DNA from: Natronolimnohabitans sp. A-GB9
GTDB taxonomy: Archaea; Halobacteriota; Halobacteria; Halobacteriales; Natrialbaceae
NCBI RefSeq assembly: GCF_030848565.1
Contig: NZ_JAVDDV010000005.1
Coordinates: 62,001-126,000, forward strand
Length of the DNA stretch: 64,000 nt
Reading direction: 5' to 3'
The translations under genes were made by a program, and so were the position numbers. Shown piece after piece: positions 6,597 to 46,486 of the stretch. How positions within the stretch are numbered: the stretch's first letter is position 1; each line of letters opens with the position of its first letter. Below the pieces are notes generated by a model. It saw only the letters and a list, made by a program, of their open reading frames with translations, had not been told where the DNA came from and ran no database searches.

Positions 6597-7829
6597 TCAC
6601 GATCGACCCAGGCCAGCAGCCAGTGCCACCGAGAGCGTTCCACCGGCGATGGCAAAGATCGCGATCACCGCGAAGAACGCGGTCAGCGACGCTGCGCCGA
6701 GGACGAAGCCGCCGATAGCGATACTCGCCGAGCCGAGCCCGAACTCGCCGAGGTAGGTGTAGCCATAGGAGAGTCCGCGGCTGTCTGCGGGCGTGTAGAC
6801 CGCGACGGCGTTCTGATAGAACGGCTGGATCGCAAAGAGGAAAAAGCCGAACGCACCACAGAGCGCGGCGATGGCGACCAGCCCCATGTCGGTGACGGGA
6901 ACGAACGCGACGGCCAATACCGTGAGAACGGCGAAGATGCCGACCATTCCCCGAGCTGGATCGACGTGATCGGTGAGCTTTCCGCCGGCGTACTGGCCGG
7001 CCATCCCGACGACCAAGAGGCCGACGTAGATGTAGTCAGCCGGCTCGATCCCCTCGAGTCCGTCGGGGACAGCCAGTCCGTCCATCGCCTCGAGACCGTG
7101 GAGGATCTCGGGCAGATAGGTGAGCATCCCCCGGTAGTACAGCCCTTCGAAGGCGACGATGACGAAGACGACGGCGAAGGCACTGGCAAACAGCGCCCGC
7201 GAGTTCGAGACCAGTTCCGAAAGCGACAGCGCCTCGTCCGGGCCCGCGTCGACGTCGTCGTCGACGGCTGCAGTGGGATCGAACCGTGCGCTGAGTCCGT
7301 ACAGGACGGCAAGAACGCCGGGAACGGCAAGGATCGCCGCGACGAGTTGCCACTCGAGGAAGATCAACAGCGTCGCAGCGACGAACGGGCCGAGTGCGAT
7401 GCCGGCGTTACCGGCGATCCCGTGCCAGGCGAACACCGTTCCACGATCCTCGACGCCGGTGCTGATGAGCGCGAGGCCGGCTGGATGGTAGACGCTGGCA
7501 GCGACTCCCCACAGGAGGAGGCCAACGGCGATCGTGGCGATCGACGACGCGAGCGAGAGCAGGAAAAACGCCACACTCATGCCGGCGATACAGAGCAGGA
7601 TGAGTCGCTTCGTGCCGTACCGGTCCGCGAGAATTCCGCCCGGGAGTGCGCCGATTCCGAACGGCGCGTAGCCGAGTGCGACGATCAGACCGAGCACGGC
7701 GACGCCGACGTCGAACTCGGCGAGCCAGACGACCAGAAAGATCGGAATCGACGTCTCGAACCAATGCACGAGGGCGTGGGCGGCCATCGTGAAGCCGGCG
7801 ATGGATCGATCGTTGCTGTCCAGTGCCAT
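6597..7829 (-). CDS. MFS transporter
   Basis: A 410-residue major facilitator superfamily carrier with about 12 membrane helices. The first cytoplasmic loop carries GILADRYGTKRLIL (about residues 64-77), which corresponds to MFS motif A (GxLaDrxGrkxxl). A hydrophilic central loop (about 190-210, rich in Asp) separates the two halves. The substrate cannot be inferred. It stands alone between the transducer and the DUF6149-like gene on the same strand. Confidence 0.9.
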   Translation of the reverse strand: MALDSNDRSIAGFTMAAHALVHWFETSIPIFLVVWLAEFDVGVAVLGLIVALGYAPFGIGALPGGILADRYGTKRLILLCIAGMSVAFFLLSLASSIATIAVGLLLWGVAASVYHPAGLALISTGVEDRGTVFAWHGIAGNAGIALGPFVAATLLIFLEWQLVAAILAVPGVLAVLYGLSARFDPTAAVDDDVDAGPDEALSLSELVSNSRALFASAFAVVFVIVAFEGLYYRGMLTYLPEILHGLEAMDGLAVPDGLEGIEPADYIYVGLLVVGMAGQYAGGKLTDHVDPARGMVGIFAVLTVLAVAFVPVTDMGLVAIAALCGAFGFFLFAIQPFYQNAVAVYTPADSRGLSYGYTYLGEFGLGSASIAIGGFVLGAASLTAFFAVIAIFAIAGGTLSVALAAGLGRS

Positions 7830-37072: not shown

Positions 37073-37151
37073 TACTGTCGGACAGCAGTCACTGAAGAGA
37101 ATTCGCCGGACGGAAGCGGCAAATGCTCACAATAGTTCTGTCCGACAGTAT
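37072..37151. repeat. 80-bp palindromic element (TACTG type)
   Basis: Terminal inverted repeats ATACTGTCGGACAG and CTGTCCGACAGTAT match perfectly over 14 bp. The interior is only weakly paired. The left end supplies a TGA stop to the stub at 37040, and the right end runs into an ATG at 37150. Confidence 0.85.
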
Positions 37152-42431: not shown

Positions 42432-42540
42432 ATACTGTCGGACAGCAGTCAGTGAGCCGTCGGTCGCGAACGCGCGGCCGTCACCGTCGGGACGGCCGCA
42501 GTCGCGCGACCGATCGTCGAATCGTGCTGTCCAACAGTAT
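42432..42540. repeat. 109-bp nested hairpin element between two prenyltransferase genes
   Basis: Outer arms ATACTGTCGGACAGCA (42432-42447) and TGCTGTCCAACAGTAT (42525-42540) match with one mismatch. Inside, CGGTCGCG...CGCGGCCGTC pairs with GACGGCCGC...CGCGCGACCG, so the whole element forms one long hairpin. The right end joins the TAA stop of uppS. Confidence 0.85.
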
Positions 42541-43611: not shown

Positions 43612-44013
43612 ATGGCAGACGCGATCGACGACGATCTCTATCGGCGAACCAAGGCACTGCTCGAGCCCGGCGACATAGAACTCAACGGGGCGATCGTCCA
43701 CACCGACTACGACGGTCAGGAAGACGTCCAGATGATGCAGGCGACGATCGACGTCGGTGATATTATCGCCCAGCACTCGGGCCACGACCCGACCGACTGT
43801 TATGTCTACTCGGGGAACGACGACACCGACTTCTCCTCGAACCAACACCAGGGACTGACCTTAGACGACGAGGAGTTCGTCTGGGAGTGCCAGCAACTGC
43901 TCCGTGACGGCTCGTTCGACATCGTGATCTACTACCGGGCCAGCGCCGACCACGAGGCGATCCTCGAGGACATCCGCGACCTCGGCTACGACGTCACGGG
44001 CGTCGAAGGGTAA
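43612..44013 (+). CDS. DUF5778-like haloarchaeal protein
   Basis: A 133-residue acidic soluble protein: MADAIDDDLYRRTKALLEPG, IELNGAIVHTDYDGQED and DTDFSSNQHQGLTLDDEEFVW are the conserved blocks that I associate with DUF5778. Ends in a small alpha/beta region (FDIVIYYRASADHEAILEDI). Function unknown. Divergent from uppS. Confidence 0.8.
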   Translation: MADAIDDDLYRRTKALLEPGDIELNGAIVHTDYDGQEDVQMMQATIDVGDIIAQHSGHDPTDCYVYSGNDDTDFSSNQHQGLTLDDEEFVWECQQLLRDGSFDIVIYYRASADHEAILEDIRDLGYDVTGVEG

Positions 44014-44167: not shown

Positions 44168-44176
44168 CTTATATTC
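44168..44176 (+). promoter_or_regulatory. TATA box of the tetrapyrrole locus
   Basis: CTTATATTC lies about 25 bp before the ATG at 44197, fitting a leaderless transcript that would run through the stub and into the precorrin-2 dehydrogenase-like gene and hemA. Confidence 0.6.
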
Positions 44177-44196: not shown

Positions 44197-44385
44197 ATGA
44201 GCACTGGCGTCGGCCTCACGGCACGTGAGCGGGCGGTCGTCAACGCTTTCCAGGACGGCTTTCCCATCACGGACCGGCCGTTCGAACCCACCGCGGCCGC
44301 CGTTCGCGATCGCGGGGTCGAGATCTGCACGATGACTCACGGCCACAGTGAGGACGAGTCAGTGTCGTATCGACGCCAACACTGA
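44197..44385 (+). pseudogene. Truncated siroheme decarboxylase (Ahb/Lrp-AsnC-like) gene
   Basis: Codes 62 residues. The first 42, MSTGVGLTARERAVVNAFQD to AAAVRDRGVEI, fit the HTH start of haloarchaeal Lrp/AsnC-like siroheme decarboxylase genes (AhbA/AhbB), which are normally several times longer and sit next to hemA. After GVEI the sequence loses this character (CTMTHGHSEDESVSYRRQH) and stops at a TGA shared with the 80-bp element. Promoter and start are intact. It is best read as a gene stub; a leader peptide is the alternative. Functional Ahb copies should then exist elsewhere in the genome. Confidence 0.6.
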
Positions 44386-44464
44386 TACTGCCGGACAACA
44401 CGATGCACACACCGATCGCACTCGAGACGCGATCGGGTGTGTATTGACTGTTGTCCGGTAGTAT
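44385..44464. repeat. 80-bp palindromic element behind the Ahb stub
   Basis: Ends ATACTGCCGGACAACA and TGTTGTCCGGTAGTAT pair at 15 of 16 positions. Inside, CACACCGATCGC pairs with GCGATCGGGTGTG, so nearly all 80 bp can fold into one hairpin. The left TGA ends the stub; the right end reads GTATGA and comes 40 bp before the next ATG. Confidence 0.88.
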
Positions 44465-44504
44465 GAAGCCACTCGCGAGTGACACACGACTGACAACAGC
44501 CACC

Positions 44505-45161
44505 ATGATCCCACTCCTGCACGACTTCGAGGGCGCGACGGTCCTCGTCTTCGGCGGCGGTCCGGTCGGGGCTCGAAAGGCCCGCCGGTTCGCCCGCGAA
44601 GCCGAGGTGTTCGTCGTCAGTCCGTCTTTCGTCGACCGGGAGTTCGGCTCGGCCGAGTTGATCCGGGCCGCTCCCGAACCGGACGCAGTCGATCAGTGGC
44701 TCGAGCGAACCGAGCCCGCGCTGGTCGTCGCCGCGACCGACGACGAGACGTTCAACGAGGCCGCCGAGGACGCGGCTCGAGCGCGGGGCACCCTCGTCAA
44801 TCGCGCGGATCGGGCCGGAGAGCGCGAGCCGGGCAGCGTCGTCGTCCCCGCGACCGTCCGTGAGGACCCCGTCGTCGTCTCGGTCGCGACCGGGGCCACG
44901 GCGCCGGCGTTGAGCAAGTATCTCCGGAGAGAATTCGAGGAGACGCTTGCCGGTTCAGGCGAGATGGCACGGCTCTGTGCCGATCTGCGTTCGGAGCTCA
45001 AATCACGCGACGTAGCCCCGGAGCGGCGCCGGGAGATCGTCACTAATGTCGTCAATTCTCCGGACGTTTGGACAGCTTTACGTACGGGTACTTCTAACTG
45101 TGGACAAGTGATAGAGGACGTGCTGGGGGAGGAGCTGTCTACTGGAGGTGATCGATCGTGA
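44505..45161 (+). CDS. Precorrin-2 dehydrogenase/sirohydrochlorin ferrochelatase-like protein
   Basis: A 218-residue NAD-binding protein of the SirC/Met8/CysG-N family that oxidises precorrin-2 to sirohydrochlorin in siroheme and haem synthesis. MIPLLHDFEGATVLVFGGGPVGARKARRF is the usual start with Rossmann GGGPVGARKA (about residues 15-24); AATDDETFNEAAEDAAR (about 84-100) and NRADRAGEREPGSVVVPA follow. I prefer the ATG at 44505 because the family begins at MIPLL. Its TGA overlaps the GTG of hemA (GTGA), indicating translational coupling. Confidence 0.92.
   Translation: MIPLLHDFEGATVLVFGGGPVGARKARRFAREAEVFVVSPSFVDREFGSAELIRAAPEPDAVDQWLERTEPALVVAATDDETFNEAAEDAARARGTLVNRADRAGEREPGSVVVPATVREDPVVVSVATGATAPALSKYLRREFEETLAGSGEMARLCADLRSELKSRDVAPERRREIVTNVVNSPDVWTALRTGTSNCGQVIEDVLGEELSTGGDRS
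45144..45152 (+). promoter_or_regulatory. Strong Shine-Dalgarno site for hemA
   Basis: GGAGGTGAT is a full match to the anti-Shine-Dalgarno end of archaeal 16S rRNA, five bases before the GTG at 45158, inside the preceding gene. It supports the GTG start and explains coupled translation. Confidence 0.75.
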
Positions 45162-46486
45162 TTCCGGCCGGGGTCGTGACCGCCGCACGAGTGACCCACG
45201 AGAGTGGGAGCGTCGACGATCTCGCCGTCGCCAGTCCCGAGAGCCAGCGGGCCGGCGTCGCCGAGCTCCTCTCGGTTCCGGACGTCGAGGAGGCGTACGT
45301 ACTCTCGACGTGCAACCGCGTCGAGGCGTACGTCGTCGCCGCCGACGGTGCCGTCGGTCGGGCCGCTCTCGAGGAGTTCTTCGCGCCGGTCGACGACGAC
45401 GCCGTCGTCGTCACTGACCACGACGGAAGCTTACGCCACCTGCTGTCCGTCGCCGCGGGTCTCGACTCGGTCGTATTGGGCGAAGATCAGATCATCGGAC
45501 AGGTACGGACGGCCTACGAGGACGCCCGCGACGCCGGCGGGATCGGTGAGATGCTCGAGGCGGCCGTGACGAAGGCGATCCACGTCGGCGAACGCGCCCG
45601 AACCGAGACCGAGATCAACGAGGGCGTCGTCTCGCTTGGCTCTGCGGCGACGAAACTCGCCGCCAGAAACGTCACGCTCGCGGGTGCGAGCGCGCTCGTC
45701 GTCGGCGCCGGCGAGATGGGACAACTCGCGGCACGGAGCCTCGCCGACGCCGACGTTGACGAACTCGTCGTCGCGAATCGGACGGTCTCGCACGCCGACC
45801 GTCTCGTGAACGAACTCGACGTCGACGCCGATGCCGTCCCGCTGGAGTCGCTGTCGACGGTCGCCGAGGAGGCCGACGTCGTCGTCGCGGCGACCGGCAG
45901 CACCGAACCGGTCCTCGAGCCACAGCATCTCGAGACCGACGGTGGAACGGATCGAAACCGGGTCGTCGTCGACCTCGGCCAGCCCCGGGACGTTGCGCCC
46001 GCGGCCGCCGACTCGCCGGCGGTCACCGTCTACGATCTGGACGATCTCGAGTCGATCACCGAGGAGACCCGCGAGCAGCGTGCCGACGCGGCCCGCGAGG
46101 TCGAGTCGATGGTCGACCACGAGTTCGACCTCCTCTGTGAACAGTACAAACGCGCTCGCGCCGACGAAGTGATCGCCGCGATGTACGAGTCGGCCGAGCG
46201 GGTCAAAGAACGGGAAGTCGAGCGGGCCCTCTCCGAACTCGAGGGCGACGCGTCCGCCGACGAGCAACGGGAGGTCGTCGAGGCGATGGCCGACGCACTT
46301 GTCAACCAACTGCTCGCGCCACCGACCAAGAGCCTGCGGGACGCAGCGGCCGAAGACGACTGGAGTACGATCCACACCGCGCTCCAACTGTTCGATCCGG
46401 ACTTCGGCGACGACGGGCCGATCGCCCCGTCGATACAGAGTAGCTCGAACACCGGAACTACGTTCGAGGCGACCGACGACGATTAG
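45158..46486 (+). CDS. hemA: Glutamyl-tRNA reductase
   Basis: Reduces glutamyl-tRNA to glutamate-1-semialdehyde, the first committed tetrapyrrole step. The 442-residue protein has the catalytic Cys in STCNRVEAYV (C52), GEDQIIGQVRTAYEDA (about 107-122), the NADPH motif LVVGAGEMGQLAARSLA (about 179-195), and the C-terminal dimerisation helices. It uses GTG with a strong ribosome binding site within the upstream gene. Together with that gene it forms the haem/siroheme operon; hemL, hemB and others are not in the window. Confidence 0.97.
   Translation: MIPAGVVTAARVTHESGSVDDLAVASPESQRAGVAELLSVPDVEEAYVLSTCNRVEAYVVAADGAVGRAALEEFFAPVDDDAVVVTDHDGSLRHLLSVAAGLDSVVLGEDQIIGQVRTAYEDARDAGGIGEMLEAAVTKAIHVGERARTETEINEGVVSLGSAATKLAARNVTLAGASALVVGAGEMGQLAARSLADADVDELVVANRTVSHADRLVNELDVDADAVPLESLSTVAEEADVVVAATGSTEPVLEPQHLETDGGTDRNRVVVDLGQPRDVAPAAADSPAVTVYDLDDLESITEETREQRADAAREVESMVDHEFDLLCEQYKRARADEVIAAMYESAERVKEREVERALSELEGDASADEQREVVEAMADALVNQLLAPPTKSLRDAAAEDDWSTIHTALQLFDPDFGDDGPIAPSIQSSSNTGTTFEATDDD

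Follow-up and report, generated by a model that had tools for sequence, protein, structure and literature searches.

The 62-codon open reading frame (ORF) in front of sirC and hemA in Natronolimnohabitans sp. A-GB9 is very probably what remains, as a pseudogene, of ahbAB, the gene for the two-domain siroheme decarboxylase, left by the non-orthologous replacement of the siroheme route to heme with a coproporphyrin-dependent one. The window analysed is a stretch of 64,000 nucleotides (contig NZ_JAVDDV010000005.1, positions 62,001 to 126,000), and the relic lies at window positions 44197-44482. An initial annotation of this DNA had recognised a reduced ahb gene at the locus, and that part of its reading stands, but the proposed replacement of the whole siroheme branch by hemE, hemH and hemY lay beyond the window and was missed.

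Anatomy of the ahbAB relic

An ATG at 44197 opens the 62-codon ORF (44197-44385, + strand), which by homology is the 5′ start of ahbAB, a gene of about 360 codons when intact. Residues 11-36 weakly resemble the NirDL-like HTH of siroheme decarboxylases (Pfam 23.8 bits against a cut-off of 27, E 3.4e-5, covering 26 of the 47 HTH positions), and the stub scores 14.9 bits with the NCBIfam AhbB model, whose cut-off is 125 bits. Functional AhbA and AhbB proteins have complete HTH and AsnC-like domains of about 150 aa per unit, which the stub does not have; judged from its sequence, it is a relic rather than a member enzyme, and cannot be a working enzyme. It does possess the orthologous position, the collinear homologous pieces and the disabling lesions by which an ahbAB pseudogene is recognised.

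Three pieces of the former gene can be aligned. The first (44197-44325, +; codons 1-43) is 77% identical at the amino acid level to residues 1-43 of the intact 361-aa gene of the congener G001 (E 3e-15), and a profile of 92 intact family proteins matches it with 56 bits (E 3.4e-17). The HTH start of an Ahb-type decarboxylase that had been proposed for this frame is borne out by the Pfam match and by this identity. The same annotation had the similarity ending after about 42 codons, which is wrong, as codons 44-55 (CTMTHGHSEDES; 44326-44361, +) correspond to C-terminal residues 300-311 (FAMTHGRSEDES) of G001 and are followed by the C-terminal tail. This second piece is joined in frame directly to the first, with 768 nt (256 codons) lost between them at a junction (44325/44326) that has about 2 nt of common sequence (TC), and an HMM built from the 92 intact proteins places the two pieces side by side (model positions 1-44 and 301-312). 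The alignment score of the second piece, 40, exceeds the maximum of 37 obtained in 3000 shuffles of the gene.

A second deletion, of about 40 further codons near the 3′ end, has its junction at approximately 44362-44371 (+), where 10 nt align without clear assignment. The third piece, in frame +1 relative to the stub, is split by a palindromic element into a first half (D A N T E; 44372-44385, +) and a second half (A T R E stop; 44467-44482, +). This frame-shifted DANTEA/TRE stop resembles the extreme C-terminus of the family, which reads DANTEAE or EANTEADD before the stop (RADANTEAE, RAEANTEADD), and although the match is weak by itself (equalled by 8 of 3000 shuffles), its order and place are correct. 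Set against the haloarchaeal two-domain siroheme decarboxylase (the AhbA-AhbB fusion of the HVO_2313 / Nmag_1221 type; PMC8305020, PMC3403918), the relic has kept its position, N-terminal 43 residues, FAMTHGRSEDES motif and C-terminal tail, but about 300 of the ~360 codons are gone and the 3′ part is frame-shifted and interrupted by a MITE.

Relatives carry the intact gene at the same place. Full-length ahbAB stands directly before sirC-hemA in 92 of the 119 family genomes with a sirC locus. These include G001, the only other species of the genus in the comparison, in which the place is held by a 361-aa AhbA-/AhbB-like fusion whose halves score 152 bits (AhbA-like) and 245 bits (AhbB-like), both above the cut-offs. 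Because the gene is present in these 92 genomes, and in 27 of the 29 family loci examined first, it is regarded as ancestral here, in agreement with the earlier statement that haloarchaea usually carry the full gene at this locus. Wherever relatives possess the gene it is full-length, and the 62-codon ORF was found in none of the family relatives at this locus as a conserved separate protein. Neither of the two observations that had been named as speaking against a reduced gene, such a conserved ORF or the lack of a full-length ahb in every relative, was therefore made.

Promoter region and mobile element

Upstream of the relic lies a DUF5778 gene (43612-44013, +; Pfam PF19090, E 2.3e-64), the conserved neighbour of ahbAB in relatives too. 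The stub starts 308 bp upstream of sirC, which encodes an intact precorrin-2 dehydrogenase of 218 aa (44505-45161, +; TIGR01470 86 bits, above the cut-off; 82% identical to that of G001) and overlaps an intact hemA, the gene for glutamyl-tRNA reductase (45158-46486, +; TIGR01035, E 1.3e-98). The TATA element of the presumed former ahbAB-sirC-hemA promoter (TTATAT; 44169-44174, +) ends 22 nt before the ATG, and in motif, place and context (cCGCTTATA; CCGCTTATA) it matches those preceding intact ahbAB in relatives. The well-placed TATA box and ATG and the adjoining sirC and hemA had all been described correctly. The retained promoter probably serves sirC-hemA, and the simplest reason for its retention is that these genes lie downstream in the same direction.

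A larger role for the locus is very unlikely, namely that promoter, translated stub and hairpin together form a leader that would set sirC-hemA expression and tune siroheme and cobalamin synthesis against the new heme route. Less probable still is that the 62-codon ORF encodes a functional leader peptide or a short regulator acting on sirC-hemA, and that the palindrome works as an RNA element. The first deletion left promoter, start codon and frame intact, the hairpin is very strong, and sirC and hemA follow directly downstream; however, the ORF occurs in no relative, and the hairpin is an ordinary mobile element present at no fewer than 40 other sites. Codons 1-43 have, moreover, diverged in amino acid sequence more than those of 70 of the 73 intact genes over the same codons, as a relic would be expected to do. 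This divergence makes a selected peptide unlikely, so that the suggested reuse of the 5′ end as a leader holds for the retention of 5′ end and promoter, probably for sirC-hemA, but not for a peptide.

The palindrome had been taken for an element of about 80 bp that ends the frame with its TGA. It is a strong palindrome (hairpin z -9.4), but measures 78 bp (TACTGCCGGACAACA...TGTTGTCCGGTAGTA; 44386-44463), and the TGA belongs to the target DNA, being duplicated to the left (44383-44385, +; the stop of the 62-codon ORF) and to the right (44464-44466, +) of the element. Since the frame-ending TGA is target DNA, the insertion did not create the stop. The genome contains 76 BLAST matches to this palindrome family, with at least 40 copies, and 22 of the 32 copies with recognisable ends are each flanked by matching TNA triplets, a 3-bp duplication. 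Terminal inverted repeats, a target duplication of fixed length, multiple copies and the lack of a transposase identify the element as a MITE. In being short, transposase-free, bounded by terminal inverted repeats and a target duplication, and present in many copies it is like the haloarchaeal MITEs described for Haloquadratum (PMC3119063), from which it differs as a member of the TACTGCCGGACAACA family with 3-bp TNA duplications. Two further copies of this TACTG...CAGTA palindrome family with 3-bp TNA-type duplications lie in the window at 42433-42539 (107 bp) and 37073-37150 (78 bp). At the relic, the junction of the MITE makes an ATG (44463) in frame with sirC; a start there would lengthen SirC by 14 residues (MKPLASDTRLTTAT).

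More improbable again is a simple inactivation by a mobile element, in which insertion of the MITE into ahbAB would have brought about the deletions next to it. The element does lie within the relic and its family is abundant in the genome, but it sits inside the last relic piece, bounded on both sides by the TGA duplication and collinear residue (DANTE and A TRE stop), and it touches neither deletion junction, the large one being about 60 bp and the second about 15-24 bp upstream. The complete loss of ahbAB in 24 hemH-carrying relatives may also speak against this scenario. From the clean TGA duplication, with a duplication of this kind in 22 of 32 copies, it follows that the element is an ordinary MITE insertion that neither truncated the frame nor abuts the large deletion. 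Deletion by the MITE was rejected because junctions and element do not coincide, and the earlier proposal of a deletion or replacement linked to the element finds no support, as both junctions (44325/44326 and ~44362-44371) are followed downstream by the cleanly duplicated insertion.

Heme genes of the genome and the family

The A-GB9 assembly (72 contigs, 99.95% complete, estimated contamination 3.94%) contains no second ahbAB, as the 361-aa fusion used as query finds the stub only and PF17805 remains below its cut-off throughout the genome. Searches with PF17805, PF22451 and the fusion protein gave no intact ahb copy elsewhere, and the two HTH matches above the cut-off are Lrp-type regulators. 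This search for intact ahbA/ahbB elsewhere in the genome, recommended as a check, supports the reading as a reduced gene. Also absent from the genome are ahbC (best match 70 bits, against 421-425 in five relatives) and ahbD (106 bits, against 326-342 in the four relatives whose ahbD is intact). Radical-SAM matches on contig C34 were rejected as ahbC or ahbD, being only about 25% identical to the AhbC/AhbD of relatives and not orthologues. The genome thus lacks AhbAB, AhbC and AhbD, the components that mark the siroheme-dependent (Ahb) heme pathway.

On a contig of 11.8 kb (C35), hemE, hemH and hemY are adjacent, all of them above curated cut-offs. HemE scores as a uroporphyrinogen decarboxylase (TIGR01464 376 bits, cut-off 303), and HemH is assigned by sequence as a ferrochelatase (TIGR00109 183 bits, cut-off 125), its best PDB relatives including coproporphyrin III ferrochelatases with which the SAH...P and F..E..E.L motifs align. 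HemY belongs to its family (TIGR00562 121 bits, cut-off 98), in which sequence does not separate coproporphyrinogen from protoporphyrinogen users. PitA/ChdC, encoded on another contig (G000:C67), scores 198.5 bits with PF06778, as a coproheme decarboxylase of the ChdC/HemQ type does. In Haloferax volcanii, aerobic heme synthesis runs through PitA/ChdC and anaerobic synthesis through AhbD (PMC5746218), and both enzymes use coproheme (PMC8305020). With activities predicted from homology, HemE, HemY and HemH would together yield coproheme by a path that bypasses siroheme. The coproporphyrin-dependent pathway (HemE, HemY/CgoX, HemH/CpfC, HemQ/ChdC) has its counterparts here in hemE, hemH, chdC/pitA and, at the level of the family, hemY, with the difference that the terminal enzyme is the haloarchaeal PitA fusion. 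Complete coproporphyrin-dependent routes have already been reported for some Halobacteria (PMC11459464, which cites Dailey 2017).

The tetranucleotide correlation of C35 with the genome (0.92) is compatible with, but not proof of, ownership; the contig carries none of the MITE copies found, and its HemH groups with Natronococcus-type sequences (support 99/97). The least probable explanation is that heme synthesis is missing, the strain being a heme auxotroph and hemE/hemH/hemY contamination or genes of other purpose, for although the contamination estimate and the short contig would fit, PitA/ChdC with its substrate coproheme is retained, the cluster order is conserved, and the hemH-positive, ahbAB-negative state recurs in 24 other genomes, some of them closed genomes in which megaplasmids carry the cluster.

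In the family as a whole, ferrochelatase and ahbAB come close to mutual exclusion. Of 125 family genomes 39 have ferrochelatase, and of the 119 compared for ahbAB at the sirC place and for hemH, 84 have ahbAB only, 24 hemH only, eight both and two, which are incomplete (55% and 77% complete), neither; A-GB9 is the sole one with a substantial ahbAB fragment and hemH. The exclusion has a Fisher p of ~1e-16, uncorrected for kinship. On the sirC tree the ahbAB state changes at least 7 times, with 4 independent pairs at strict branch support, too few for significance. Eight genomes retain both routes, so that gaining the new one need not lead to immediate loss of the other. In closed genomes the hemE-hemH-hemY cluster is often on large plasmids, for example in Natronorubrum bangense and Halopiger xanaduensis. 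Among genomes that keep ahbAB, L197, L341, L350 and L351 (Haloterrigena and relatives) have a second, divergent HemH clade (~55% identical), located on megaplasmids in some finished genomes, which may reflect a stage of coexistence. Some Natrialbaceae have AhbA and AhbB and apparently neither AhbC/AhbD nor HemH (the Natrialba magadii annotation, PMC3403918, and our family search).

Weaker, C-terminal ahbAB relics (TGSRLDERAD...) lie just upstream of sirC in two hemH-positive Natronorubrum genomes, G108 (L219) and G101 (L218), and are 80-91% identical to intact genes over 32-46 nt. Among the other hemH-positive genomes searched for relics, G012 gave a weak match and the remaining matches were short and not collinear. 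The congener G001 has ahbAB and ahbC, an internally deleted ahbD and no hemH, and the ahbD deletion indicates that the siroheme branch was already eroding. The ahbD remnant of G001 (L192, G001:C3, ~6750-7430, minus strand) retains profile positions 2-40 and 266-339 beside an intact ahbC; in this species coproheme would come from the Ahb route and PitA alone would carry out the last step.

Proposed replacement of the siroheme route

We propose that ahbAB once headed an ahbAB-sirC-hemA operon in a lineage that had, or acquired, the hemE-hemH-hemY cluster. Starting from uroporphyrinogen III, the cluster would have produced coproheme without passing through siroheme, and this coproheme would have been converted to heme b by the resident PitA/ChdC. 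With coproheme supplied in this way, ahbAB, ahbC and ahbD may have become dispensable and would then have been lost, ahbAB through the in-frame deletion of 256 codons and the removal of some 40 more near its 3′ end. At some point the MITE inserted into the residue. The promoter would have survived, probably because sirC and hemA are transcribed from it, these genes being needed for siroheme, cobalamin and all tetrapyrroles.

The relic adds one more case to the pseudogenes known to be left behind where a pathway has been replaced by a non-orthologous one. Our literature search, which covered few subscription papers, returned no report of the near-exclusion, of a siroheme route that had been replaced or of a relic showing the direction. 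In A-GB9 the relic fixes the direction of change, as it was the siroheme route that was lost. It records a step in the swap of one route to an essential cofactor for another, and gives the direction in a family where the two routes seldom coexist and megaplasmids often carry the new cluster. We predict that heme in haloarchaea with hemEHY depends on HemH/HemY and PitA and would need oxygen or peroxide chemistry, and that siroheme would be no heme precursor in these organisms.
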